From Halarchaeum rubridurum (GTDB lineage Archaea > Halobacteriota > Halobacteria > Halobacteriales > Halobacteriaceae), in contig NZ_BMOO01000008.1 in the NCBI RefSeq assembly GCF_014647115.1, positions 1-51,838 of the forward strand: a DNA stretch of 51,838 bases, given 5' to 3'. Below are positions 14,090-45,859 of the stretch, in pieces. A program made the position numbers and the translations under genes. Each line of letters starts with the position of its first letter. Position 1 is the stretch's first letter. The notes beneath the pieces are model-generated. The model saw nothing but the letters and a program-made list of their open reading frames with translations. It did no database searches and was not told the origin of the DNA.

Positions 14090-14519
14090 CTACGACACGA
14101 CCTGTTCTCTCGTTCGAAACGTCCCGCTCTCGCGGTCGAACAGGTATGTCGATGGCTGTGTCGTTCGAAAGGCGCTCCGCGCCTTTCGTGATGTCGTCAG
14201 AACGCGAAGCGTTCTGGCTGCTAACCAGAAGTCTTCGACTTCTGGTGATGACGAGAGACCTCTGGTCTCTCGAACCACCACACAGCCGTTACTCCTATCC
14301 TCACCGTGAGAACTCGGAGTTATCTTCTGGCGCATGTTCTCCGCCCCGTTGCAATCCGCGTTCCCGACTAACCCACACGACGAACACACGTACAAGCCAC
14401 GGTGCTTGCGGTTCGATTTCGTGTCGTCGCCACACTTCGAGCAGGTCTTCGAGGTATCCCACTCGTTCTCCTTCAGCACCTCAACGCCACGTATCTCACC
14501 TTTGTAGTCGAGGTACTGG
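14090..14519 (-). pseudogene. tnpB: TnpB C-terminal fragment (zinc ribbon and tail)
   Basis: About 143 codons. YLDYKGEIRGVEVLKENEWD and TSKTCSKCGDDTKSNRKHRG lead into VCSSCGLVGNADCNGAENM, the four-cysteine zinc ribbon plus the third RuvC-type Asp region of TnpB. The N-terminal two thirds with the first two catalytic acids is gone, so no nuclease activity is expected. The last 60 codons (14160-14275) are made of consecutive DNA palindromes, annotated separately. Confidence 0.7.
14166..14271 (-). ncRNA. Tandem hairpin array at the tnpB 3' end (omega-RNA-like candidate)
   Basis: Four perfect hairpins in 106 bp: 14166-14188 (CGAAAGGCG arm), 14199-14217 (CAGAACGC arm), 14224-14246 (ACCAGAAGT arm) and 14253-14271 (GAGAGACC arm), each with a 3-nt loop. 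The 3' part of IS1341-type tnpB genes in haloarchaea produces sense overlapping RNAs, and TnpB uses a 3'-derived guide RNA. The fragment keeps this RNA region while losing most of the protein. Confidence 0.45.
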
Positions 14520-14739
14520 GGCGACGTACACGGACGCCGAGTTGGAGCGCTCCGTCCTCGAACGCTTCCGCGCCCACGACGCCGTCCAGCGCGGCGAGAT
14601 GCACGGCTCGTGGGTCGTCCGCTACGACGGGAGGGTCTACTGGGCCGACCTCCACTACGGGCAGTTCGTAGAGGAAACCTATGTATCGGGTCCGGACCGT
14701 CGAAATCCGATCGATACGACGCCGTACCGACCCGAGTGA
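14520..14739 (+). pseudogene. 3' end of an unidentified gene cut by the IS605 fragment
   Basis: About 72 codons in frame to a TGA at 14737-14739: YTDAELERSVLERFRAHDAV, GEMHGSWVVRYDGRVYWADL, HYGQFVEETYVSG. Composition and codon use are those of a real haloarchaeal gene (GC at third positions), and the acidic amphipathic start is typical. The N-terminus is missing, replaced by the IS605 fragment. I do not recognise the family. It sits just before the mptG-type operon (convergent). Confidence 0.5.
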
Positions 14740-14799: not shown

Positions 14800-15780
14800 T
14801 CACCCGAGGGAGCCGCAGTTCTGCGGAGCGACGATTCGGACATCGCCGGCGACACCGGCACGTTCGAGCGCGCGCTCGCCGGCCGCGCGGGCTGCGGCCC
14901 GCTCGTCGGTAGTCGTGACGCCGTACGCGACCGGCCCCCAGGAGGACTGGCCGGCCCCGGTGATCGCGTCGTCCGCCAGCAGGGTGTCGACGAGCGTCGC
15001 AACAGGTGCACGGTAGACGCCGTCCTGTTCGTCGGCGTACCACGTCCCGTTGAGTCGCCCGATCTCCGTCACGGCGTCGCCGAACGCCGCCGCGTCGCCC
15101 GCTTCGATCGCCGGGAGGACACGACGCGTGACGAGGCCGGCGATCCGATCCGAGACGTCCGGGTCGGCGTCGCCGATCGCCGCGCGCATACTCTTTTGCT
15201 CCGCGTCGCCACAGCGACCGGGGTCGGCCGCCGGAACGACGAGCACGAACCGCCACGCCGGCGGGATGGTGTGGCGGGCGACGACTGGCGGGACCGTCCA
15301 CGTCCCGTCCTCCCCGTCCGTCGCCGTCCCCGTGGGTGTGCCGCAGGCCGGCGTCGGGCGGCCGGCGTCGAGGACGAAGCCACCGTTCTCGATAGCCGCG
15401 ACGCCGATGCCGCTCCGGCGACCGCGGCCGAGGGCGGGCGCACACTCCCGGATGCACGGTTGCGCGTCGTACGTGCGGGCGATGGCCGCGGTCATCGCGA
15501 GTACGGTCGCGGTTCCGCTCCCGAGACCGACGTGCCGGGGGAGCGACTCGTTCAGCTCGACGCGCGCGCCGGGGACGCCGAGGTGGTCGACGATCCGCCG
15601 CACGTCTTCCTCGAACGCGCGCGGACAGTCGATCGTCTCCGCCGCCGTCGCCGTAACCGACACGCGGGGCTTGGCGAGCGCGACGCCGAGACTCCCGTAC
15701 AGCCGTTCGTGCTCGGGCGAGAGGTTCAGGAACCCCATGTGGAGTCGCGCGCCCGTGGAGACGGAGACGCTCTCACCCAT
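14800..15780 (-). CDS. mptG: Beta-ribofuranosylaminobenzene 5'-phosphate synthase (MptG)
   Basis: 326 aa. Beta-RFAP synthase joins PRPP and p-aminobenzoate derivatives with CO2 release, the committing step of tetrahydromethanopterin (H4MPT) synthesis. The sequence shows the GHMP-kinase-like architecture of the family: N-terminal STGARLHMGFLNLSPEHERL, the glycine-rich PRHVGLGSGTATVLAMTAAI, RRSGIGVAAIENGGFVLDAG, and late GAGQSSWGPVAYGV. Length is the family norm. ATG 15780 overlaps the DUF447 stop by 8 nt, so it is the last gene of a four-gene operon. Base composition is clearly above the plasmid average, as for the whole operon. Haloarchaea generally use folate, so a pterin of this type on a plasmid is notable. 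Confidence 0.85.
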   Translation of the reverse strand: MGESVSVSTGARLHMGFLNLSPEHERLYGSLGVALAKPRVSVTATAAETIDCPRAFEEDVRRIVDHLGVPGARVELNESLPRHVGLGSGTATVLAMTAAIARTYDAQPCIRECAPALGRGRRSGIGVAAIENGGFVLDAGRPTPACGTPTGTATDGEDGTWTVPPVVARHTIPPAWRFVLVVPAADPGRCGDAEQKSMRAAIGDADPDVSDRIAGLVTRRVLPAIEAGDAAAFGDAVTEIGRLNGTWYADEQDGVYRAPVATLVDTLLADDAITGAGQSSWGPVAYGVTTTDERAAARAAGERALERAGVAGDVRIVAPQNCGSLG

Positions 15781-16351
15781 CGGACTGTGCCTCCTCGACG
15801 TGCTCGTGCACGCGATCGATGGCGTCGTGCTCCGCCGGGCCGCCACACCGGCGCGCGACCGCAGTCGCGTGGTCCAAGCGACGCCGGAGGACGTCGTCGT
15901 CGTAGGCCTCGACGCCGAGCCGTGACGCCGCGACCGTCGCCTCGACGACGGCCGCGAACCCGCGGTTCGTGAGCGGGACGCGCTCCTCGCCGACCGCGAC
16001 GGCCGTAGGGTGGAGTGCCCACGACGCCCACGGCGTCCCGTCGCGCTTCCCCGCCTCGCGGCGCTCCACGTCGACGCGAACTCGTGCATCGGCGCTCGGG
16101 AGCGCCGACTCGTCGGTTTCGTGCACGCCGAGTGCGGCCTCGACGAAGAGGCGCGCGTCCCGGGTGAAGTGGACGTAGCCGACGCCCGTCCGCTCGAAAT
16201 TGCGGCGCGTCCGCGTGTGGCCCCAGGTCTCCGCGGTGACGACGTCGCCCGCGTGAAGCCCGAGCGCCGCCGCGTTCCACCGCCCGTTCGGGCCCTCCGT
16301 GGTGATGATGCTCTCCGTCACGCCACGCAGCGGAACCGGCCAATCGGTCAT
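15773..16351 (-). CDS. DUF447-family protein, linked to methanopterin-type C1 metabolism
   Basis: 192 aa. VTESIITTEGPNGRWNAAAL and AETWGHTRTRRNFERTGVGY, with VHFTRDARLFVEAALG, match the split-barrel DUF447 family, which has a flavin-reductase-like fold. From memory, members occur in archaea and in the methanopterin gene islands of methylotrophic bacteria; the reaction is unknown. The start (16351) overlaps the CitG-like stop by 4 nt and the end overlaps mptG, so translation is coupled. A role in making or using the pterin cofactor is inferred from that conserved company. Confidence 0.75.
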   Translation of the reverse strand: MTDWPVPLRGVTESIITTEGPNGRWNAAALGLHAGDVVTAETWGHTRTRRNFERTGVGYVHFTRDARLFVEAALGVHETDESALPSADARVRVDVERREAGKRDGTPWASWALHPTAVAVGEERVPLTNRGFAAVVEATVAASRLGVEAYDDDVLRRRLDHATAVARRCGGPAEHDAIDRVHEHVEEAQSDG

Positions 16352-17190
16352 ACGCGGACCCCGCGGGAGAGTGCAACGAACACCGCCGCGGTGGTGATGT
16401 CGGCGGTCGTTCCCGGATTGATCCCCCGATCAACGAGCTCGTCGGCCCACGCGTCGATCGTCGCGCGGTCCGCGTCTTCGAGTGCCGCAGCGCGCTCGCG
16501 CACGCGCTCGGCGACGGCGCTCCCATGTCGGGCGGCGACGTGTCCGTCGGGAGCCTCCGCGAGCAGGCCGAGGAAGGTTCGGGCGATTCGCTCGGGGAGC
16601 GCCGCCGTTCCCGCACACAGCGAGGCCGCGGCGTCGAACGTCCGCTCGAACCCGCTGGCCCACTCGTCGGCGACGCCGTCGGTCGGCGCGCCGGCCGTCA
16701 CGACCGCCGAGAGGGTGAGCCCCCGTGATCGGACGGCCGGGATCGCGTCGGCACCCCGCCGAACGTCGAGGTCGGCGAGCTCCGCCGGGGGGTCGGCGAC
16801 GCCGACGTCGGTGTGGTCGAACGCCCGGTAGAACTGGACGGCGTCGTCCACGGTCGTCGCCTCGGTGACGTCCGTGGCGGCCGCACGCGTCACCTCGTCG
16901 GCGCTCGCGGCCGCGCGGATGAGCGGCGTGAGGAGGAGGAGCGCGCCGAACTGGGTGTTGTCCCGCGCCCGCTCGGCCATGCCGGCGACGGCGGTCTCGA
17001 ACGCCTCACCGACCGGCGCGCCCGCGGCGGCAGCGTCGAGGCCGGGACGGGCACCGACGGCACCGGCGAGGAACTGCTCGAAGCGGAGGTCGTGGTGGTC
17101 GCGCTCGCGATCGACGTTCCCCGGCTTCGGGGCGGCGGCCACATCGAGGAGGAGCGCGAGCTGGGCGTCCCCGGCGACGCCGCGCGTCAC
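16348..17190 (-). CDS. CitG-like triphosphoribosyl-dephospho-CoA synthase family protein
   Basis: 280 aa from GTG 17190, whose start overlaps the Mer-like stop as GTGA. Family motifs: ALLLDVAAAPKPGNVDRERD, FEQFLAGAVGARPG, NTQFGALLLLTPL, and GINPGTTADITTAAVFVAL at the end, all typical of the CitG superfamily. In citrate lyase systems CitG makes the prosthetic group from dephospho-CoA and ATP. In archaea and in methylotroph C1 islands a paralogous form, with no citrate lyase nearby, is thought to work in methanopterin cofactor synthesis. Here the neighbours are Mer-like, DUF447 and MptG, which supports the second role. Confidence 0.75.
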   Translation of the reverse strand: MTRGVAGDAQLALLLDVAAAPKPGNVDRERDHHDLRFEQFLAGAVGARPGLDAAAAGAPVGEAFETAVAGMAERARDNTQFGALLLLTPLIRAAASADEVTRAAATDVTEATTVDDAVQFYRAFDHTDVGVADPPAELADLDVRRGADAIPAVRSRGLTLSAVVTAGAPTDGVADEWASGFERTFDAAASLCAGTAALPERIARTFLGLLAEAPDGHVAARHGSAVAERVRERAAALEDADRATIDAWADELVDRGINPGTTADITTAAVFVALSRGVRV

Positions 17191-18185
17191 GGCGCACGCA
17201 CCCGCTCGAACACGTCGCCCAGGTGGTCGATGGCGCTCGCCCGGTCCGGTCCGAGTGGTGCGGCGGCGACGACGCCATCGACGTATTCGAGGATGTTGCG
17301 GAGTCGGGTTTCGACGTCCGCCGGATCGCCGGCGATGCAAAAGGCGTCGATCATCGCCGGCGACACGGTCTCGAATGCGTCATCGAACGCGCCGCGACCG
17401 AGTGCGTCGCCGATGGCGGCCGCCCTGTCGGGGTCGATCCCGTGGCGATCGAGGATGGCACGCGGCGCGCCGGCGGTGACGAACGCGACGGGCGGGCGGG
17501 CGGCGCGGCGTGCCTCGGCAGCGTCGTCGGCGATGCTGACGCTCGCGAACGCGACGGTGTCGAAGGACCCGCGCTCCGGAGACCGGTCGGCGAGACCGAG
17601 GTCGATCCGGTCCACCGCGGCCGCGAGGTCGTCTGGATGCGCGGCGTTCACGAGCACGCCGTCGGCGTACGTCGCGGCCATACGGAGCATATCGGGTCCC
17701 TGTGCACCGACGTAGATCGGCGTCGAGCCGGCGTCGTAGTCGAGAGTCGCGTCGACCGCCCGAAACGTGCCGTCGTGATCGACGCGCTCGCCGTCCCAGA
17801 GCGCCCGTGCGACGCGTATGGTCTCTAGGACGCGGCGAAGGGGTCGGTCGTGCTTGATCCCGAGATCGGCGAGCGTCGAAGCGTCGCCGGCACCGAGACC
17901 GAAGAGCGTACGGCCGCCGCTCCGTTCCGCGAGAGTCGCTATCCGTGAAGCTAGGGCCACTGGATGCGTCTCGTACGGGTTGACGATTCCGGGACCGAGG
18001 CGGATTGACTCCGTCGCGGCCGCCACCCGCGAGAGCGCCACGAAGGGGTCGCGGTTGTTGTAGTGCGCGGAGACGAAGACGCGGTCGAACCCGGATCGCT
18101 CCGCCGTGGCCGCGAGCGAACCGACGGAGTCGGCCGGGACGTCCGGTGTGAGCTCCACCCCGGCCGTTCGGAGCGAGCGGCTCAT
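17187..18185 (-). CDS. mer: F420-dependent methylene-H4MPT reductase-like (Mer, LLM class)
   Basis: 332 aa. Luciferase-like monooxygenase TIM-barrel: AGVELTPDVPADSVGSLAAT, VFVSAHYNNRDPFVALSRVA, GIVNPYETHPVALASRIATL, GGRTLFGLGAGDASTLADLG and YVGAQGPDMLRMAATYADGV. These are patterns shared with Mer, which reduces methylene-H4MPT to methyl-H4MPT with F420H2. Other LLM flavoproteins look similar, so the substrate is inferred from three H4MPT-linked genes in the same overlapping operon. It is the first gene. It faces the methionine synthase pair across 172 bp, which would consume the methyl group. ATG 18185 is the only start consistent with the N-terminal strand. Confidence 0.8.
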   Translation of the reverse strand: MSRSLRTAGVELTPDVPADSVGSLAATAERSGFDRVFVSAHYNNRDPFVALSRVAAATESIRLGPGIVNPYETHPVALASRIATLAERSGGRTLFGLGAGDASTLADLGIKHDRPLRRVLETIRVARALWDGERVDHDGTFRAVDATLDYDAGSTPIYVGAQGPDMLRMAATYADGVLVNAAHPDDLAAAVDRIDLGLADRSPERGSFDTVAFASVSIADDAAEARRAARPPVAFVTAGAPRAILDRHGIDPDRAAAIGDALGRGAFDDAFETVSPAMIDAFCIAGDPADVETRLRNILEYVDGVVAAAPLGPDRASAIDHLGDVFERVRAP

Positions 18186-18357
18186 TTGCGCGCCCCCGCC
18201 TGCGTCCGTGGTTCGGTGATCCCGGAGACCGTTTTTGCGTCCCCGCGCGTCCCGTGTCGGTTCATACCCTTCGGTAACCCGGCCGAGACACAAATAACTA
18301 GTGGGAATAGGCAACGGCAGTATTATTATCAAACAGCATCGCATCGGTGGCGGATGT
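18186..18357. promoter_or_regulatory. Divergent promoter between the pterin operon and metE pair
   Basis: 172 bp, the only AT-rich stretch of the island. TATTATTATCA (18320-18330) lies about 30 nt before ATG 18358, as for a leaderless or near-leaderless transcript rightward. AAATAACTAG (18291-18300) may serve the leftward operon. Shared control of both transcripts is likely but no operator could be named. Confidence 0.4.
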
Positions 18358-19341
18358 ATGGAGCAATTCGCGACGACGGTCGGTCTGTTCCCGCTTCCCG
18401 ACGGGCAACGGGAGCGACTCGCCGAGCTGAAGGGCCACCAGAAATCAGACCTCATCGACGGCGACGAGAAGCCGGCGGTACGGGAGGCGTACTCGGCGAC
18501 CCAGGGTCACTACATCGACCGCCAGCGCGAGGCCGGTCTCAACCGGATCGTCGAAGGCCAGGGGCGATGGGACGACCTGCTCGCCCATCCGCTCTGCGTC
18601 CACGATAACGTCCGGACGGGTGGGATCGTCCGCTACTACGACAACAACAACTTCTATCGGGAGCCGATCGTGACCGGCGAGCTGACGCCGAACGGGGACG
18701 TGCCGGCCGAGCTGGCGGCCGCGTCGGAGCGCTGTGACGACCTCCATGCGGTGCTTCCGGGGCCGTATTCGCTCGCCGGCCTCGCAAGCGACGAGCATTA
18801 CGGCTCGTTCGCGGCATTGCTTGATGGGGTCGCGGGCTTCCTCGCGGGCGAGGTCGCCGCGTTCCCCGACGCCGTCGAGACGCTCACCCTCCTCGAACCC
18901 GGGTTCACCACGGACCCCCCGGACGCAGCGACGCACGACCGGATCAGCAAAGCTATCGACACCATCGCGGCCGCGAGCGATGCGGAGGTGATCGTCCACA
19001 CGTACTGGGGAATGGCTGGCGAGGACCTGTATCGACACCTCCTCGACACCGGCGCGGATGGGCTCGGCTACGACCTCGTCGCGGCCCCGGACGCCGCGGG
19101 CGACCTCGTTGCGGAGTACGGCGCACCACCGCGTGTCCTCCTCGGTGTCGTCGACGGCCAGAACACGCTCATTGAAGGGCGTGAGACAATCCGCGAACGG
19201 GTACGGCGATTCGAGGAGCGTGCCGCGACCGATGTCAAGGCCGCGTATCTGACGCCGAACACGGGGCTGTTCCATCTGCCGGTGAGCAAGTTCGAAGCGA
19301 AACTGGATGCGCTCGCCGCGGCCGCGGGGGGTGCACAATGA
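18358..19341 (+). CDS. Methionine synthase II, N-terminal-domain-type partner (MetE-N)
   Basis: 327 aa. TTVGLFPLPDGQRERLAELK opens a MetE-type barrel. VREAYSATQGHYIDRQREAG, LDLHAVLPGPYSLAGLA-like text and a late PNTGLFHLPVSKFEAKLDAL match archaeal split methionine synthase proteins. The protein lacks the zinc-binding HxC and C sites, which are on the next gene. In full-length MetE the N-terminal barrel binds the methyl-pterin, so this subunit probably presents the methyl donor. Stop and start of the pair overlap as ATGA at 19338, indicating a fixed complex. Confidence 0.75.
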   Translation: MEQFATTVGLFPLPDGQRERLAELKGHQKSDLIDGDEKPAVREAYSATQGHYIDRQREAGLNRIVEGQGRWDDLLAHPLCVHDNVRTGGIVRYYDNNNFYREPIVTGELTPNGDVPAELAAASERCDDLHAVLPGPYSLAGLASDEHYGSFAALLDGVAGFLAGEVAAFPDAVETLTLLEPGFTTDPPDAATHDRISKAIDTIAAASDAEVIVHTYWGMAGEDLYRHLLDTGADGLGYDLVAAPDAAGDLVAEYGAPPRVLLGVVDGQNTLIEGRETIRERVRRFEERAATDVKAAYLTPNTGLFHLPVSKFEAKLDALAAAAGGAQ

Positions 19342-20393
19342 CGGGTCGCGAGCGCTTCCGGCCCGCCGACCACTCAAACGACCACTTCCTCCTCACCACC
19401 GTCGTCGGCTCGTATCCGAAGCCGACGTGGCTGAATCGGGCGCGCGACCTGCGCGACGACGACGACTCCTCCGACTTCGACGCCGACGCGTGGGACGAAG
19501 CCGTTCGCGACGCGAGTCGCGCTATCACGCACGAGCACGAACACACCGGCCTCGACGTCGTCTGCGACGGCGAGATGCGCCGCGAGGAGATGGTGGAGTT
19601 CTTCGCCGAGCGTATCGAGGGGTACGAGTTCAACGGCCCGGTGAAGGTCTGGGGACACAACTACTTCGACAAACCGAGCGTCGTCTCCGAGGTCGCTTAC
19701 GACGAACCGTGGCTCCTCGATGAGTACGAGTTCAGTACCGATGTCGCACAGCGCCCGGTCAAGGTGCCGATCACCGGCCCCTACACCCTTGCGTCGTGGA
19801 GCTTCGACGAGGAATACGGAAGCGAGGAGACGCTCGCCTACGAGCTCGCCGACCTCGTCAACGAGGAGCTCTCGCGCCTCGTCGCGGCCGGCGCTCGCTA
19901 CATCCAGATCGACGAGCCCGCGCTCGCGACGACGCCCGACGACCACGCCATCGTCGGCGAGTGCCTCGAACGGATCGTCGCTGATCTCCCCGACGACGTT
20001 CGTGTCGGCCTCCACGTCTGCTACGGCGACTACTCGCGGATCTATCCCGAGATCAACGACTACCCGATTGACGAGTTCGACGTCGAACTCGCCAACGGGG
20101 ACTACGAGCAGATCGACGTCTTCGCCGACGGCGACTTCGAGCCCGATCTCGCGCTCGGCGTCGTCGACGTCCACACGACCGACGTTGAATCCGTTGAACA
20201 GATCGAGGCGAACATCTGCGAGGGATTGACAGTCGTCCCGCCGGAGCGACTCACGATCAGCCCCGATTGTGGCGTCAAACTCCTGCCGCGCAACGTTGCC
20301 CGCGAGAAGATCGAAAACATGGTTCGCGCCGCCCGGAACGTCGAGGCGGCGCTCGACGCCGGCGAGATCGACCTCGACTGTCGGACGGTGTGA
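19338..20393 (+). CDS. metE: Cobalamin-independent methionine synthase, catalytic half (MetE-C)
   Basis: 351 aa. Catalytic barrel of MetE, transferring a methyl group to homocysteine. The zinc site is visible: H226 and C228 (GLHVCYGDYSR) and C311 (SPDCGVKLLPR). VVGSYPKPTWL, VCDGEMRREEMVEFFAERI, PITGPYTLASWSFDEEYGS and YIQIDEPALATTP are conserved. The ATG overlaps the N-type gene by 4 nt. Core MetE proteins without a folate-binding N domain use other methyl donors; here a separate N-type subunit and a divergent methanopterin operon suggest a methyl-H4MPT-like donor. Its gene is as GC-rich as the operon opposite. Confidence 0.85.
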   Translation: MTGRERFRPADHSNDHFLLTTVVGSYPKPTWLNRARDLRDDDDSSDFDADAWDEAVRDASRAITHEHEHTGLDVVCDGEMRREEMVEFFAERIEGYEFNGPVKVWGHNYFDKPSVVSEVAYDEPWLLDEYEFSTDVAQRPVKVPITGPYTLASWSFDEEYGSEETLAYELADLVNEELSRLVAAGARYIQIDEPALATTPDDHAIVGECLERIVADLPDDVRVGLHVCYGDYSRIYPEINDYPIDEFDVELANGDYEQIDVFADGDFEPDLALGVVDVHTTDVESVEQIEANICEGLTVVPPERLTISPDCGVKLLPRNVAREKIENMVRAARNVEAALDAGEIDLDCRTV

Positions 20394-20487
20394 CGCGGAT
20401 GTCGCGTCCCCGCATGCGACTTCGCCCATAGCGGGCGATCCGTCACGCCGGGGCAGTCGCGTTCCTGCGCACGCGTTGACGTCCGCT

Positions 20488-21003
20488 ATGGCGGCGAACT
20501 TCCAGCAGGTCGCCCCACTACAGACACTCTACGATTATCCAGCCAATCGGTTCGTCACCGAATTCATCGGTGAACCTGCGATGAACGTCCTCTCGGTGGG
20601 CGTCCACGAGCACGACGGCCGCGTCGTCGCCGTACATGACGGAGTCACCCTCACGCTCCCTGACGGAAGCGGCCTCGACGCCGCCACGGGGACGGACTGG
20701 GCGTTCGGTGTCTGCCCCGAGGATGTCTCGATCGCCGGCGCGCTCCCGGGGGATGTCGAGACGTTCACCGCGACGGTCACCGTCCGCGAACCACTCGGCG
20801 AACAGCTCCTGATACACTGCCAGGTCGGCGGCGAGGAACTCCGCGTGAAAGTCCCCCCACGAAGCGAGGTCGCCGTCGGCGAGTCAGTCGAACTTAGTGT
20901 CGACACCGCACGCCTCCATCTCTTCGACGGAATGAGCGGGGACGGATTCTATCACTCGACACCGCACGATGACCCGACCGTCAAGCACGTCGCCGCCGAC
21001 TAA
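20488..21003 (+). pseudogene. ABC transporter ATPase, C-terminal fragment only
   Basis: The open frame begins MAANFQQVAPLQTLYDYPAN, matching the region just after the D-loop and H-loop of sugar-type (MalK/UgpC) ATPases, whose usual form is LQQVAPPQTLYDYPANRFVA. EFIGEPAMNVL and the OB-fold TOBE domain follow to the end. Walker A, signature and Walker B are all missing: the first 200 or so residues are gone. The upstream 90 bp has no in-frame continuation. It is the scar of a sugar transporter operon joined to the end of metE. Confidence 0.7.
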
Positions 21004-36562: not shown

Positions 36563-36709
36563 TGATATAGACCGAGAGCGCATACCTCCGTCTTCAGGCG
36601 GAGGTCAAGCGATAGGCATAGTGCGTCAATCCACGAGTCCCGCCAGTACTGGATTTCTCACGCTACACCGAGGGTATTAAGATGCTATCGAACTATAGTG
36701 TACATACGG

Positions 36710-37099
36710 ATGAAGAGCACACGGCACGCGACCTACAGCCTCAACTACCACATAGTGTGGGTGTCGAAGTACCGCAACTCGGTACTCGTCAATGGGGTCG
36801 CCGACCGTGTACGAGACATCCTCCACGAAATTGCTGACAACAAGGGCTTAGAGATAATCGACCTGACCGTTCAGCCCGACCACGTTCACCTGTTCGTCAG
36901 TAGTCCACCGAAACACGCCCCATCACTGCTCGCTAACTGGTTCAAGGGTATCAGTTCGCGGAAATACAACCACCGACACGCCGACCATGACGGCGAGAAA
37001 ATCAAGTGGGCACGCGGCTACTACGCAGGAACAGCAGGCCACGTTTCGAGTGAGACTGTCGAAAAGTACATTCAGCGACACGAGGAGGACGAACAGTGA
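36710..37099 (+). CDS. tnpA: TnpA, Y1 HUH transposase of IS200/IS605
   Basis: 129 aa from ATG 36710. HUH motif PDHVHLFVSS (H58 and H60), preceding helices RVRDILHEIADNK, and the catalytic Tyr in SETVEKYIQRHEE (Y120). SLNYHIVWVSKYR at the N-terminus is the family hallmark. It cuts and joins single-stranded DNA ends with subterminal hairpins. The stop overlaps tnpB by 4 nt (GTGA). Confidence 0.9.
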   Translation: MKSTRHATYSLNYHIVWVSKYRNSVLVNGVADRVRDILHEIADNKGLEIIDLTVQPDHVHLFVSSPPKHAPSLLANWFKGISSRKYNHRHADHDGEKIKWARGYYAGTAGHVSSETVEKYIQRHEEDEQ

Positions 37100-38331
37100 C
37101 CGAACTCACCGAGACGTTGGAACTGAAGCTCGTGGAACCGAACGCCCACAAGCATCGGAAACTCTGTGAGACGAAACGAGCGTATCAAGACGCGCTCGAA
37201 GCCGCGTTCACCGCAAACTGCACTACACAGTCGGCGGCAAACGACGTAGTAGTTAACTACGATCTGAGCGGGTACGCGAAGAACGCGCTCAAAAAGTACG
37301 TCCCGCAACTCTGTGGCGGAAGCTACGACGCAAAAGAGCTCCACGATGACCATCCCGTTCGGTTCACGAACGAAGGCCCGAAGCTCGACCACAAGCCACA
37401 GAACGCCATCGAGTGGTACGTCAAGATTCCGCACCACGACGACTACGACCTCTGGTTGCCCGCACAACCGAACCCGGAACAGCGAGAGTGGTTGGAAGCA
37501 TTGCACGCGGGAGACGCGACGATGGGTGAATGTCGGCTGTTCGACCGTGACGGCGAGTGGTACTTCCACATCACGGCGACACGGGACGTGGCGGAACGAG
37601 AAACCAGTTCGGCGGAAACGCCGATTGGGGTAGACATCGGGGAAGCCTCTCTAATAACGGTGTGTCACCGTAATGAGCGCGGCTCCCCGACTGCACCCAA
37701 CCTCTGGAACGACGAAGGCAAGACGGTTCGACAACTCCGTGAGACGTACTTCACGGCGACTCGACGCCTTCAGAAACGCGGAAGCGAACGTATCGCAGAG
37801 TCCTACGGCGACGAGCTGTGGCGACACATCGACCACATCCTTCACACGGTCACGTCGGAGGTCGTCACCTACGCTGACCAATTCGAGAACCCCGTCCTGG
37901 TTCTGGAAGACTTGACGCACATCCGTGAGAACATGGACTACGGCGCGTTCATGAACCGCCGTCTTCACGGGTGGGGGTTTGCGAAGATGCACGCTCAGGT
38001 CTGCTACAAAGCGGCTGAGAAGGGCATTCGCGTTGAAACAGTGAACCCTGCGTACACCTCGAAGACGTGCCACTGTTGCGGAGAACAGGGCTCCCGTCCG
38101 ACGCAGGCGACGTTCAACTGTTCCAACTCGGAGTGTTGGGTTTCGGAGTACCACGCAGACGTGAACGCCGCGCTCAATATTGCAGACCGCTACCTCAGCG
38201 GAGAGAGTCACTCAAGAGAAGACACGAGTGGCGATGACTCGGCTGAGGAAGGGGGACGTTTGACCGTCCCACAAGACGGCCACGCCGATGCTGACACCCA
38301 GCAAGCGACGCGTGGACCGTATGCGTCTTGA
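37096..38331 (+). CDS. tnpB: TnpB, RNA-guided nuclease of IS605, catalytic residues intact
   Basis: 411 aa. RuvC triad present: D180 (GVDIGEAS), E271 (VLVLEDLTHI) and D355 (EYHADVNAALNIA), with the zinc ribbon between the last two (CHCCGEQG and NCSNSEC). Length is typical. TnpB with an RNA from its own 3' end cleaves DNA beside a transposon-adjacent motif and favours element retention. The 3' end of this gene holds hairpins (for example GGGACGTTTGACCGTCCC near 38252), as in the truncated copy at 14166. Confidence 0.9.
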   Translation: MTELTETLELKLVEPNAHKHRKLCETKRAYQDALEAAFTANCTTQSAANDVVVNYDLSGYAKNALKKYVPQLCGGSYDAKELHDDHPVRFTNEGPKLDHKPQNAIEWYVKIPHHDDYDLWLPAQPNPEQREWLEALHAGDATMGECRLFDRDGEWYFHITATRDVAERETSSAETPIGVDIGEASLITVCHRNERGSPTAPNLWNDEGKTVRQLRETYFTATRRLQKRGSERIAESYGDELWRHIDHILHTVTSEVVTYADQFENPVLVLEDLTHIRENMDYGAFMNRRLHGWGFAKMHAQVCYKAAEKGIRVETVNPAYTSKTCHCCGEQGSRPTQATFNCSNSECWVSEYHADVNAALNIADRYLSGESHSREDTSGDDSAEEGGRLTVPQDGHADADTQQATRGPYAS

Positions 38332-42436: not shown

Positions 42437-43813
42437 ATGATGGAACAGTCCGAGGCGGAGTTCGCCCCTGAGATGGCGCGCCACGCGACTGCCGCAGACC
42501 TCCGTGCCGAACTCGGGTCGCATGATCTGTCACGACATCTCGCACTCTTCTACCGGTCGAACGAATCCCAGTTGGCTGCCGTCACAGCCTTCCTCGTTAA
42601 GGGGCTCCAGTCAGGGCACCGCTGTGTCTACCTACTCGACGTCAACACCGCTACGGACATCAAATCGGCACTCCGAAGAGCTAATGTCGACGTCGAGCAA
42701 CGCATCAACGCTGGAGACTTCGTCATTCGAGACGCCGAAGAGGTCTACCTCGAATCTGGTTTTAACCCCACCGAAATGGTCTCGACGCTCGAAACCGAAG
42801 CGAATGCCAGCGTTGCCGACGGCTACAATGGATTGTGGATCGCCGGCGAGAACTCGTGGTGTTTCCACACCGACCAGTCGTTTGACCACATCGTTGACTT
42901 TGAGGCGGACTTCGATGCTGCCTGCCCAGAGCTCCCAGTTACCGCACTCTGCCAGTATGACCTTGATCGCTTCAACGGAACATCGGCTGCCAAGGCTCTC
43001 CGGACACACGCACAGATCATCTACCGCACTCAGCTCTGCAAGAACCCCTTCTACATCTCACCTGCAGACTATCGTTCGACTGATAACTCAGAGCTGAATG
43101 CGCAGCTGATGCTGGAGCAAGCGTACTCGCTGACGAACGCCCGCCGCGACATCTCCGACCGCGAACAACGCCTAGATATCGTCAACCGTGTGCTCCGGCA
43201 TAACATCCGCAACGACCTGAACCTCGTGCAAGGGATCCTTGAGATGGTCAACGAGACGGAGTCGCTATCCGCCGAGAGCCACCAGCGGCTGGCAATCGCT
43301 ATTGAGCATGCAGAGTCGGTCGTCGAGATGGCGGACAAAGCCCGCTACATCCAACAAACGACCGGCAATACGACGGTCGAACCCCAGCGGCTTGACTCCC
43401 TCATCAAGACCGCTATCGAAGAAGTGACAGCCGACTACCCGGCCGCTGATGTTCAGCGTTCTGGGGCGACCGGTGTGACCGTGCTTGCGGATACGAATCT
43501 CGACGTTGCGTTACGCGAAGCCATTGAGAATGGGATTATCCACCAAGACACGGATTCTCCAACTGTCGTCGTCTCCGTCTTGACGGCGAGAGAAGACATG
43601 GCCCAGATAGAGATTCGGAATGAAGGCTCCATTCCGAATGTGGAACGGTATACACTGGAGGAGGGAGCGGAGACCCCGTTAGAGCATTCGAGTGGGCTTG
43701 GCCTCTGGCTCATTAAGTGGATCGTTGAGAACGCCCATGGATCAATCCGATTCCCAGACTCAAACGCAGGTGAGGCATGCCTCCAGATCGAATTATATCT
43801 GGTTCCTTCATAG
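42437..43813 (+). CDS. Histidine kinase with MEDS sensor domain
   Basis: 458 aa from ATG 42437 (42440 equally possible); TTTTATG about 27 nt before it supports a leaderless start. Residues about 30-200 look like a MEDS domain (HLALFYRSNESQLAAVTAFL, CVYLLDVNTATDIKSALRRA, GDFVIRDAEEVYL, ALCQYDLDRFNG). MEDS is a sensor for hydrocarbon or redox signals in methanogens and haloarchaea. Then HisKA with RVLRHNIRNDLNLVQGILEM (phospho-acceptor His) and HATPase with LREAIENGIIHQD (N box) and SSGLGLWLIKWIVE (G box). No membrane helix, so it senses a cytoplasmic signal. Confidence 0.8.
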   Translation: MMEQSEAEFAPEMARHATAADLRAELGSHDLSRHLALFYRSNESQLAAVTAFLVKGLQSGHRCVYLLDVNTATDIKSALRRANVDVEQRINAGDFVIRDAEEVYLESGFNPTEMVSTLETEANASVADGYNGLWIAGENSWCFHTDQSFDHIVDFEADFDAACPELPVTALCQYDLDRFNGTSAAKALRTHAQIIYRTQLCKNPFYISPADYRSTDNSELNAQLMLEQAYSLTNARRDISDREQRLDIVNRVLRHNIRNDLNLVQGILEMVNETESLSAESHQRLAIAIEHAESVVEMADKARYIQQTTGNTTVEPQRLDSLIKTAIEEVTADYPAADVQRSGATGVTVLADTNLDVALREAIENGIIHQDTDSPTVVVSVLTAREDMAQIEIRNEGSIPNVERYTLEEGAETPLEHSSGLGLWLIKWIVENAHGSIRFPDSNAGEACLQIELYLVPS

Positions 43814-43966: not shown

Positions 43967-45859
43967 ATGGATCGGAGCCGCTGGAAACGAGTGTTGAGCG
44001 GCGGTGCAATTCTACTACTGGGCCTCGTTTTTCTCACACTCACCCTCTATGATATCCCGGCAGACGTCCTCCACCAAGGTATCCCTCTCCATCTAACCCT
44101 TCTTGAGAATTCGCTCCCAATCCTTCTCAATCTCTTGCTTGTCGGGTCAGGGATTCTCCTTCTCGCGTATGGGCCAATTTCACCGCAGACGGCGTATCTC
44201 ATCGCGCGGTGGAGTATTCTGAGTGCGGTTACCGTCTGCCTGCTCCTCGGCTGGGTATACGCCCTTCAGCTCATTGAAGGTGTATTTAAGCCGTATCTGC
44301 TGTTCACGCATACGATTACCGTCGCTACTCTCACTGGGCTAGGTGTCGGGGTCTATGATAGTCGGCGTCGCCGCCACCGGCGGCAACTCCAAGACGAGAA
44401 TACCAAAATCACTGCTCTCTTCGAGAATAGCTCTGACTGCATCGCTGAGATCGAGTTCGTCGACCAGGCCCCACTTATTCAGGCCGTTAACCCAGCGTTT
44501 GAACGGACGTTTGGATTTGAGGAAGCAGACATCCAAGGGAGGTCGATTGATGAGCTGATCACTCCATCTGCTGTGCAAGACAGTGCGTCCGCAATTAGCC
44601 AGCGCGCATACGCTTACGAGCAGTTTGAGGAGTCGGAGATCTGTCGCCAGACCGCCTCCGGTGAACTGCGAATGTTTCACCTTCAGGTGATCCCTCTTCG
44701 GACGAATTCCACCGACACGGATGGATATGCCGTCTACACCGATATCACGGATGAATATCGGTATAATGAGCAGCTTACTGCCCTCCACGAAACGACACGA
44801 GATCTGCTCCGGACGGACTCAACGACAACAGTTGTTGAAGATGCCGTCGACGCGACGACCGATCTCTTCCGGTTCGATCTCGCGGCGATCTACCAGTATG
44901 ATACGGAGGCCGATGAACTCGTTCCGGAAGCATATACGACCGCCGATGGCTTGTTCTCTGATCCGCCGAGTTTCCCTCGTGGGGAGGCAATCGCGTGGAC
45001 GGTCTTCGAAACCGGGGAATCGCAATGCATCCAGAACGTGGCGGAGCATCCGGACGCCTATAATCCAGCGTCGCCGGTCGCGAGTGAGTTGATTCTTCCG
45101 CTCGGCGACTGGGGAGTGATGATGATTGGGTCAGAGACTCGTGATGCATTTGATGAGACGGACTATTCGTTGGCGAAGATTCTCGCTGCGAATATTACGA
45201 CCGCGTTAGAACGGGCGGAGCGGGAAGCACGACTTAGGGAGCAGAATGAGCGGTTGGAGCGGTTTGCGAGTGTTATTTCACATGACATTCGAAACCCGTT
45301 AACGGTCGCGCAGGGATATCTTGATCTGGGACGTGCTGGCGACGAGGCCGCATTTGATCGGGTTGAGAGTGCGCTTGAACGAATGGAGCAACTGGTGGAT
45401 GAGCTATCGACGCTTGCGCAGCAAGGTGAGGAGATTAGCTCCCGCTCACCAGTCAACCTTGCAACGACTGCGAGAGCCGCGTGGGAGCAGGTCGCAACTG
45501 CTGACGCCGATTTGCGCGTTGAGAGTTCCCGTGAGATTCAAGCAGACCGGAACCGATTCCAGCAGCTCTTGGAGAATCTCTTTATGAACGCGATCACACA
45601 CGGAGGAGACGATATCACCGTGTTCGTTGAAGCGACGGGAGATGGCTTTGCGGTGGAGGACACTGGAACCGGTATTGAGCCGGCGGAGCGCGAGCAGATT
45701 TTCGAGTCAGGCTATACCACTGACGCGGATGGAACCGGACTGGGGCTCACAATCGTGCAGGAGATTGTGGATGCGCATAACTGGTCCATCTCTATTACTG
45801 AGGGAAGAGAGGGTGGCGCACGGTTCGAAGTTGAAGTTGATACCCGTACGCACGAGTGA
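43967..45859 (+). CDS. Membrane histidine kinase with PAS and GAF domains
   Basis: 630 aa. Four hydrophobic segments at the N-terminus (about 10-115: SGGAILLLGLVFLTLTLYDI, PILLNLLLVGSGILLLAYGP, ILSAVTVCLLLGWVYALQLI). Then PAS (about 140-250, CIAEIEFVDQAPLIQAVNPA), GAF (about 270-410, FDLAAIYQYDTEADELVPEA), HisKA (FASVISHDIRNPLTVAQGYL) and HATPase (LENLFMNAITHGGDD, ADGTGLGLTIVQEIVDAHNW). It is the second of two kinases in the same direction, facing the receiver-PAS gene. Confidence 0.85.
   Translation: MDRSRWKRVLSGGAILLLGLVFLTLTLYDIPADVLHQGIPLHLTLLENSLPILLNLLLVGSGILLLAYGPISPQTAYLIARWSILSAVTVCLLLGWVYALQLIEGVFKPYLLFTHTITVATLTGLGVGVYDSRRRRHRRQLQDENTKITALFENSSDCIAEIEFVDQAPLIQAVNPAFERTFGFEEADIQGRSIDELITPSAVQDSASAISQRAYAYEQFEESEICRQTASGELRMFHLQVIPLRTNSTDTDGYAVYTDITDEYRYNEQLTALHETTRDLLRTDSTTTVVEDAVDATTDLFRFDLAAIYQYDTEADELVPEAYTTADGLFSDPPSFPRGEAIAWTVFETGESQCIQNVAEHPDAYNPASPVASELILPLGDWGVMMIGSETRDAFDETDYSLAKILAANITTALERAEREARLREQNERLERFASVISHDIRNPLTVAQGYLDLGRAGDEAAFDRVESALERMEQLVDELSTLAQQGEEISSRSPVNLATTARAAWEQVATADADLRVESSREIQADRNRFQQLLENLFMNAITHGGDDITVFVEATGDGFAVEDTGTGIEPAEREQIFESGYTTDADGTGLGLTIVQEIVDAHNWSISITEGREGGARFEVEVDTRTHE

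Follow-up and report, generated by a model that had tools for sequence, protein, structure and literature searches.

Background

Haloarchaea are described as making methionine with a split form of the methionine synthase MetE, which is predicted to use methyltetrahydrofolate or another methyl pterin bound by its N half (PMC7857596, Price et al. 2021). Split MetE was the sole methionine synthase of 73 Halobacteria, and no other methionine synthase was reported in the class except MetE in Haloquadratum walsbyi (PMC7857596). Haloarchaeal homologues of Mer, Mch and MptG, enzymes of the methanopterin type, have also been listed, with folate assumed to be the carrier (Pfeiffer and Dyall-Smith 2021, PMC8305020). 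Here we describe a block of six genes from Halarchaeum rubridurum (contig NZ_BMOO01000008.1) in which mer, mptG and genes for a CitG-like and a DUF447 protein are joined to both halves of metE. The window, by which we mean the whole stretch analysed, is contig C8 in its entirety (51,838 bases); the genome totals 2.81 Mb over 25 contigs.

The one-carbon (C1) carrier of haloarchaea and the role of their methanopterin-type genes are an open annotation problem in the literature, and the pattern reported here makes the claim specific. We give a probability of about 0.6 to the block being a complete methyl-pterin-to-methionine module, in which a methanopterin-like carrier feeds MetE.

Co-occurrence of the gene set and its link to methionine

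We evaluated the distribution of the gene set across 116 genomes of Halobacteria with a completeness of 90% or more, counting Mer at E<=1e-40. Host and compared genomes are labelled G000 and by other G numbers, respectively. MptG, the CitG-like protein, DUF447 and Mer were each found in 113 of the 116 genomes, and the same three genomes lacked all four: G001 and G007, from one genus, and G018, which together represent two independent lineages. A preliminary description of this DNA, made from the sequence alone, had proposed looking for co-occurrence of these genes across haloarchaea; the four proved strictly co-absent. It had also pointed to further pterin genes, of which mch was present in 116/116 genomes, but the MptG-less ones were among them. 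Mch was thus rejected as part of the unit on its distribution, and its presence in every genome means that haloarchaea may use folate, or both carriers, for their other C1 steps. Methylenetetrahydrofolate reductase (MTHFR) occurred in 26 of the 116 genomes, most of which retain the MptG set, so MTHFR alone replacing Mer is no general rule. The gene set is near-universal in Halobacteria and normally scattered. In a wider sample of 391 genomes, with the five best candidates per genome scored, MptG was missing from ten.

In three MptG-less lineages (G018; G001/G007; G352), split MetE has been lost or replaced. G018 is missing MetE-C and keeps only a fast-evolving MetE-N (L129:8034-8981), at a site between genes that resemble hemK, ksgA and ndk (identified by eye in the open reading frames, ORFs); it is likely a methionine auxotroph with a decaying MetE-N. 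G001 and G007 are without MetE-N, and their sole MetE-C is diverged (E ~1e-95, against ~1e-150 to 1e-200 in most genomes); both carry two MTHFR genes and a cassette of FolD, DAO-GcvT and RACo. Among the MptG-less genomes of the wider sample, G313 and G352 have only a diverged MetE-C. That of G352 is a 342-aa core MetE, with the zinc and homocysteine residues kept and the pterin-stacking Trp154 replaced by Phe, and it lies within 20 kb of genes for MttB, a corrinoid protein, RACo, MTHFR, formyltetrahydrofolate synthetase (FTHFS) and FolD. This stretch, a corrinoid/folate methylotrophy cluster (G352:C1:459319-479071, L244:19319 to L245:19071), encodes an MttB-type methyltransferase, a corrinoid protein, a RACo activase, a DAO-GcvT fusion, MTHFR, FTHFS, FolD and the core-type MetE. 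Of the 3.3 Mb of G352, 2.0 Mb were covered; MptG, the CitG-like protein, DUF447, MetE-N and a close Mer were not found there.

Across the 391 genomes, MetE-C was absent or diverged in 5/10 MptG-less versus 5/381 MptG-bearing genomes (Fisher p=8e-7, ignoring shared ancestry). Read most simply, this means that a core methionine enzyme supplied by corrinoid or folate makes the set of MptG, CitG-like protein, DUF447, Mer and MetE-N dispensable, and the pattern suggests that nearly all haloarchaea use these genes jointly for methionine.

Physical linkage was evaluated next to co-occurrence. No other block gene lay within 1.5 kb of any of 29 fetched mptG loci, and one of 80 named mptG loci (Halarchaeum nitratireducens) had another within 8 kb, indicating that such clustering is rare. 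A second cluster is carried by the Halobellus limi plasmid NZ_CP031312.1 (L138:10182-15818), where npdG is divergent from mer-DUF447-mptG-metEN-metEC. Its order differs from that of the Halarchaeum block, CitG is missing and metE forms the terminal part of the operon; on the first two grounds, the cluster seems to have brought these functions together independently. The F420 reductase encoded by npdG would supply Mer. Rieske and glycine-cleavage genes adjoin this cluster. Co-absence, the two clusterings and the loss or replacement of MetE in three MptG-less lineages together support the proposal of the preliminary description that the methanopterin-type genes and split MetE are one functional unit.

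Proteins of the block

The Mer protein scored 433.9 bits on NF002619 (cut-off 276) and 308.9 on TIGR03555, below the cut-off of 348.7. Its best PDB matches were Mer structures 8qpl/1z69; the top six were all Mer (E 8e-72 to 4e-59), and the next luciferase-like monooxygenase (LLM) family enzyme followed at 3e-18. Residues E11, D101, F235, N180 and I67 correspond to the proton donor Glu6, Asp96, Phe233, the carboxamide at 178 and Val/Ile62 of the described active site (PMC11094777, which writes Gln178 where the deposited chain has Asn). D101 is the pterin Asp and I67 occupies the F420 back-stop position; four of the five residues are invariant in eight haloarchaeal Mer and position 67 is V/I. 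A grouping with non-C1 LLM enzymes, which the preliminary description had named as an outcome that would overturn its reading, was rejected by profile, active-site residues and nearest structures, all of which are those of Mer.

The methionine synthase genes are adjacent, overlap by 4 bp and each encode fewer than 400 aa, with Meth_synt_1 the best profile for MetE-N and Meth_synt_2 for MetE-C. In the PDB, MetE-N weakly matches the N domain of full-length MetE. The zinc ligands of MetE-C are H226, C228, E250 and C311; the zinc and homocysteine residues and Trp154 are kept in 39 haloarchaeal MetE-C, one of which has Ala at the Ser25 position. MetE-N as the donor-binding subunit, as first proposed for this locus, agrees with the published prediction for split MetE (PMC7857596). 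The accompanying argument, that core MetE enzymes without a folate-binding domain need another donor, does not apply because split MetE with an N half is no core MetE. With MetE-N directly upstream, the window enzyme was rejected as a core methionine synthase (MesA-D).

MptG is a divergent member of its family, scoring 131.1 bits on TIGR00144 (subfamily cut-off 113.5). The nearest solved structures are C-riboside synthases of the type of ForT and of the synthase of β-ribofuranosylaminobenzene 5'-phosphate (RFAP). The residues of the ForT C-nucleoside synthase that bind phosphoribosyl pyrophosphate (PRPP) are described (PMC8183095): H99, T106, R135 and S139 are invariant in 35/35 haloarchaeal MptG, G134 is kept in 33/35, and S142 is replaced by Gly. 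Arg26, likewise invariant in haloarchaeal MptG, may be the equivalent of the Arg26 that binds p-aminobenzoate in the Methanothermobacter RFAP enzyme (PMC6787355).

The CitG-like protein reaches 22-29 bits on the NCBIfam CitG/MdcB equivalogs (cut-offs 272-282), making it a superfamily member only, and 3h9p is its sole PDB relative. It accompanies DUF447 in 29/29 CitG loci fetched from other genomes. CitG makes an alpha-ribosidic bond to a ribose, and tetrahydromethanopterin (H4MPT) carries an alpha-linked ribose phosphate on a ribitol; hence our proposal that attaching this ribose is the task of the CitG-like protein. Its identification with methylotroph orf5 was considered and is wrong, since orf5 is the methylofuran glutamate ligase (PMC8141765).

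For DUF447, a structure was predicted from input in which rows from plasmid records were left out (mean predicted local distance difference test, pLDDT, 89.6). The model aligned to DUF447 structures with bound flavin mononucleotide (FMN) from Methanosarcina mazei and Archaeoglobus fulgidus, both methanopterin users: 2nr4 (Z 22.0, root-mean-square deviation 2.4, 177 aligned) and 2iml (Z 21.8, 2.3, 178 aligned). On this model we predict with confidence the split-barrel fold of FMN-bound DUF447 proteins; the window protein is a putative FMN binder. Among the papers searched, none linked DUF447 to methanopterin. Steps of methanopterin-type synthesis are proposed here as the function of two families whose function is unknown or misnamed, DUF447 and archaeal CitG-like proteins.

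Layout and origin of the plasmid copy

The block spans 14800-20393, with all six frames intact, four on the minus strand and two on the plus strand (Table 1). Adjacent genes within each arm overlap by 4-8 bp, and exactly 172 bp separate the start codons of Mer and MetE-N; the coordinates confirm the overlapping, divergent arrangement first described. In an alignment of the window copy, the host chromosomal copy on C2, H. nitratireducens and G191, the 172-bp gap holds conserved blocks. The short blocks ATAAATAACTA and ATTATTATCA, at 18287-18335, recur in the Halarchaeum copies and to some extent in that of G191, and are a possible shared promoter or regulator site. A sigma-70 promoter scan was uninformative, the model not being suited to an archaeal host.

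Table 1. Features of the six-gene block and its edges (positions in the window)
Feature	Position	Strand	Basis
MptG-like protein, beta-RFAP synthase family, GHMP superfamily, 326 aa	14800..15780	-	TIGR00144, ForT-type PRPP residues
DUF447 protein, predicted FMN-binding split barrel, 192 aa	15773..16351	-	PF04289/PF20766 above cut-off
CitG-like protein, triphosphoribosyl-dephospho-CoA synthase superfamily, 280 aa	16348..17190	-	PF01874 4e-62
Mer, F420-dependent methylene-tetrahydropterin reductase, 332 aa	17187..18185	-	NF002619, PDB matches, active-site residues
Divergent intergenic region, 172 bp	18186..18357		Blocks conserved across four cluster copies
MetE-N, non-catalytic N half of split methionine synthase, 327 aa	18358..19341	+	PF08267 outscores PF01717
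MetE-C, catalytic half, 351 aa	19338..20393	+	NF003317 518 bits vs cut-off 406
Remnant of stretch beyond chromosomal mptG, 83.6% match	14510..14668		Alignment to host chromosome
MalK/UgpC-type ABC ATPase, C-terminal fragment (TOBE/OB), right block edge	20475..21003	+	Profile matches

The contig encodes ParA, Orc1/Cdc6 and IS200/605 pieces, which fits a plasmid; the closest outside plasmid is from Halarchaeum sp. CBA1220. A "plasmid island" had been the first reading of the block. It is instead an extra copy: the host genome also has a chromosomal block of matching gene content and order (G000:C2:3120-8752), 82% identical in DNA over 5,646 bp and 75-85% identical in protein, as well as a third metE pair (C3:124472-126525), and the gene set is class-wide. 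Plasmid-specific novelty was accordingly rejected. The GC contrast that had been remarked on is real (70.2% in the block, 58.4% in the remaining contig), but it is merely the composition of the host chromosome (70.5%, two stretches). It therefore marks a chromosomal origin and nothing exotic, and a foreign, non-haloarchaeal origin was rejected.

H. nitratireducens also has the block (82% DNA identity to the plasmid copy), as does G191, a genome from another family (MetE divergent from Mer-CitG-DUF447-MptG). In G236, another species of the same genus, mptG and metE are at separate sites and MptG is placed elsewhere in the tree. The Halarchaeum-type copies group with G191 both in an MptG tree, built by a quick method with support from the Shimodaira-Hasegawa-like approximate likelihood ratio test (SH-aLRT 96), and in the MetE-N tree (98/86), which indicates that the block probably moved between haloarchaea. 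The window MetE-N falls outside the pair formed by the host C2 copy and H. nitratireducens (98/84). This placement disfavours a recent duplication inside the host genome and points to a third, related lineage as the probable source of the plasmid copy.

The block edges look like those of a transposed chromosomal fragment, with a tnpB remnant and the scrap of sequence from past chromosomal mptG on the left and the truncated MalK/UgpC-type gene on the right. At the left edge lies the 3' remnant (14300-14510) of an IS200/605 tnpB with a Cas12f1-like TNB domain; another tnpB, which has an ORF next to it on the upstream side, is found at 36698-38331. A histidine-kinase gene found beyond mptG in both chromosomes (host and H. 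nitratireducens) is also on the plasmid, at 43967-45859. This plasmid kinase is of the PAS-GAF type; its relative stands 1.5 kb beyond the host chromosomal mptG, and near mptG in H. nitratireducens. A protein with a MEDS domain (methanogen/methylotroph DcmR sensory) adjoins the kinase at 42437-43813. Elsewhere on the contig (4376-7831), DUF7405, DUF7350 and DsbD_2 genes are consecutive, with GC ~64%.

The plasmid copy probably derives from the chromosome of a Halarchaeum-like relative and probably adds dosage or back-up. For this copy alone, there is a somewhat better than even chance that it is redundant cargo, a chromosomal fragment taken up by an IS-rich plasmid and having no distinct role. 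The 82% DNA identity to the host chromosomal block and to H. nitratireducens, the chromosome-like composition, the tnpB remnant and truncated ABC ATPase at the flanks, and the presence on the plasmid of the kinase that neighbours chromosomal mptG all point that way. Against it, all six frames are open with a ratio of nonsynonymous to synonymous substitution rates (dN/dS) of 0.19-0.42 between plasmid and host chromosomal genes, so that the copy is maintained under purifying selection, and blocks of the promoter region are conserved; simple dosage is still compatible with these observations.

The methyl carrier

In the pathway we propose, MptG would join PRPP and an aminobenzoate by a C-riboside bond, and the product would then be tailored into a methanopterin-like tetrahydropterin by the CitG-like protein and by DUF447, an FMN protein. 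The CitG-like protein may add the alpha-linked ribose, and DUF447 may reduce either the ribose ring or the pterin. Mer would then reduce methylene to methyl on this carrier using F420H2, and split MetE would transfer the methyl group to homocysteine, its N half holding the methyl-pterin and its C half the zinc and homocysteine. While the gene identities, the conserved active sites and the pattern of retention and loss are directly observed, we infer these two tailoring reactions and a carrier other than folate.

There is an even chance, in our estimate, that haloarchaea divide their C1 transfers between folate, as the general carrier, and a methanopterin-like C-riboside pterin that MptG, the CitG-like protein and DUF447 produce and that is set aside for Mer and split MetE, and so for methionine. 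Gain of a corrinoid-fed core MetE would then discard the second carrier.

Several observations weigh against a methanopterin-like carrier. According to published curation, tetrahydrofolate is the carrier of haloarchaea and the HVO_2628 family is probably no RFAP maker (PMC8305020, citing White 1988). The window MptG scores 140.6 bits on the RFAP-synthase equivalog NF040726, below its cut-off of 328. The phenyl-pocket residues V8 and V230 of jMer are T and P in haloarchaeal Mer, suggesting that the carrier may differ from H4MPT. Mch, present in 116/116 genomes, is not tied to the MptG set. Finally, MptG-less G121, G217, G252, G287 and G342 keep a normal-scoring MetE-C, so that the rule linking MptG and MetE is not strict.

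The first four of these points, from the literature position and the detection of folate (PMC8305020, citing White 1988) through the sub-threshold MptG and the altered H4MPT phenyl pocket of Mer to the presence of Mch irrespective of MptG, would be accounted for if folate were the only carrier. Mer and split MetE would then use methylene- and methyl-tetrahydrofolate, MptG, the CitG-like protein and DUF447 would make small changes to folate or have some other product, and the set would stay together for its service to methionine synthesis via folate. However, this leaves unexplained why the retention or loss of Mer always goes together with that of a CitG-like protein and of a PRPP-binding C-riboside synthase whose catalytic residues are conserved, and lineages with a plain folate set of MTHFR, FolD and FTHFS dispense with the whole set. 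We regard the folate-only reading as unlikely. A use of the four methanopterin-type genes in formaldehyde or C1 oxidation or detoxification, with the metE neighbours incidental or a side outlet, is more doubtful still: Mer is reversible in methanogens and the Halobellus limi cluster lies near glycine-cleavage and Rieske genes, but MetE is lost or replaced in three MptG-less lineages and metE ends the Halobellus limi operon.

A methanopterin-like carrier for methionine thus now appears likelier than before, and on balance probable. If this is true, mptG, citG-like, DUF447 and mer would all be expected to act as methionine genes in Haloferax volcanii, a species with routine gene knock-outs.

Comparison with known systems

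The system resembles the H4MPT synthesis and the Mer known from methanogens, Archaeoglobus and methylotrophic bacteria, with which it shares MptG- and Mer-family enzymes as well as CitG-like and DUF447 relatives whose structures come from H4MPT users (3h9p, 2iml, 2nr4 and 2ptf). It differs from these in that haloarchaea are without methanogenesis, the use appears tied to methionine and MptG is divergent. ForT (PMC8183095) has the PRPP-binding residues that are also conserved in MptG, but makes a formycin precursor from a pyrazole in an unrelated pathway.

Like the split MetE of other archaea (PMC7857596), the window pair consists of adjacent genes for the N half and the zinc-bearing C half. 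Unlike those, it is physically joined to genes for a probable methanopterin-like carrier and its reductase, and the host genome has two complete blocks plus a third metE pair. The core synthases MesA-MesD share the MetE catalytic domain but work without a pterin-binding partner, from corrinoid or other donors, whereas the window enzyme has MetE-N and the pterin-stacking Trp; the core enzyme of G352, unlike that of the window, resembles this kind.

In Haloferax volcanii, HVO_1937 (mer) and HVO_2628 (mptG-like) are the named haloarchaeal Mer and homologue of the first committed methanopterin enzyme (PMC8305020). There folate is assumed, RFAP synthesis is doubted, and neither the link to CitG and DUF447 nor the co-absence with Mer and MetE is in the main text. 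Beyond published work, the analysis adds that MptG, the CitG-like protein, DUF447 and Mer are co-absent, that they are repeatedly joined to metE in physical clusters, and that lineages lacking them have replaced MetE.

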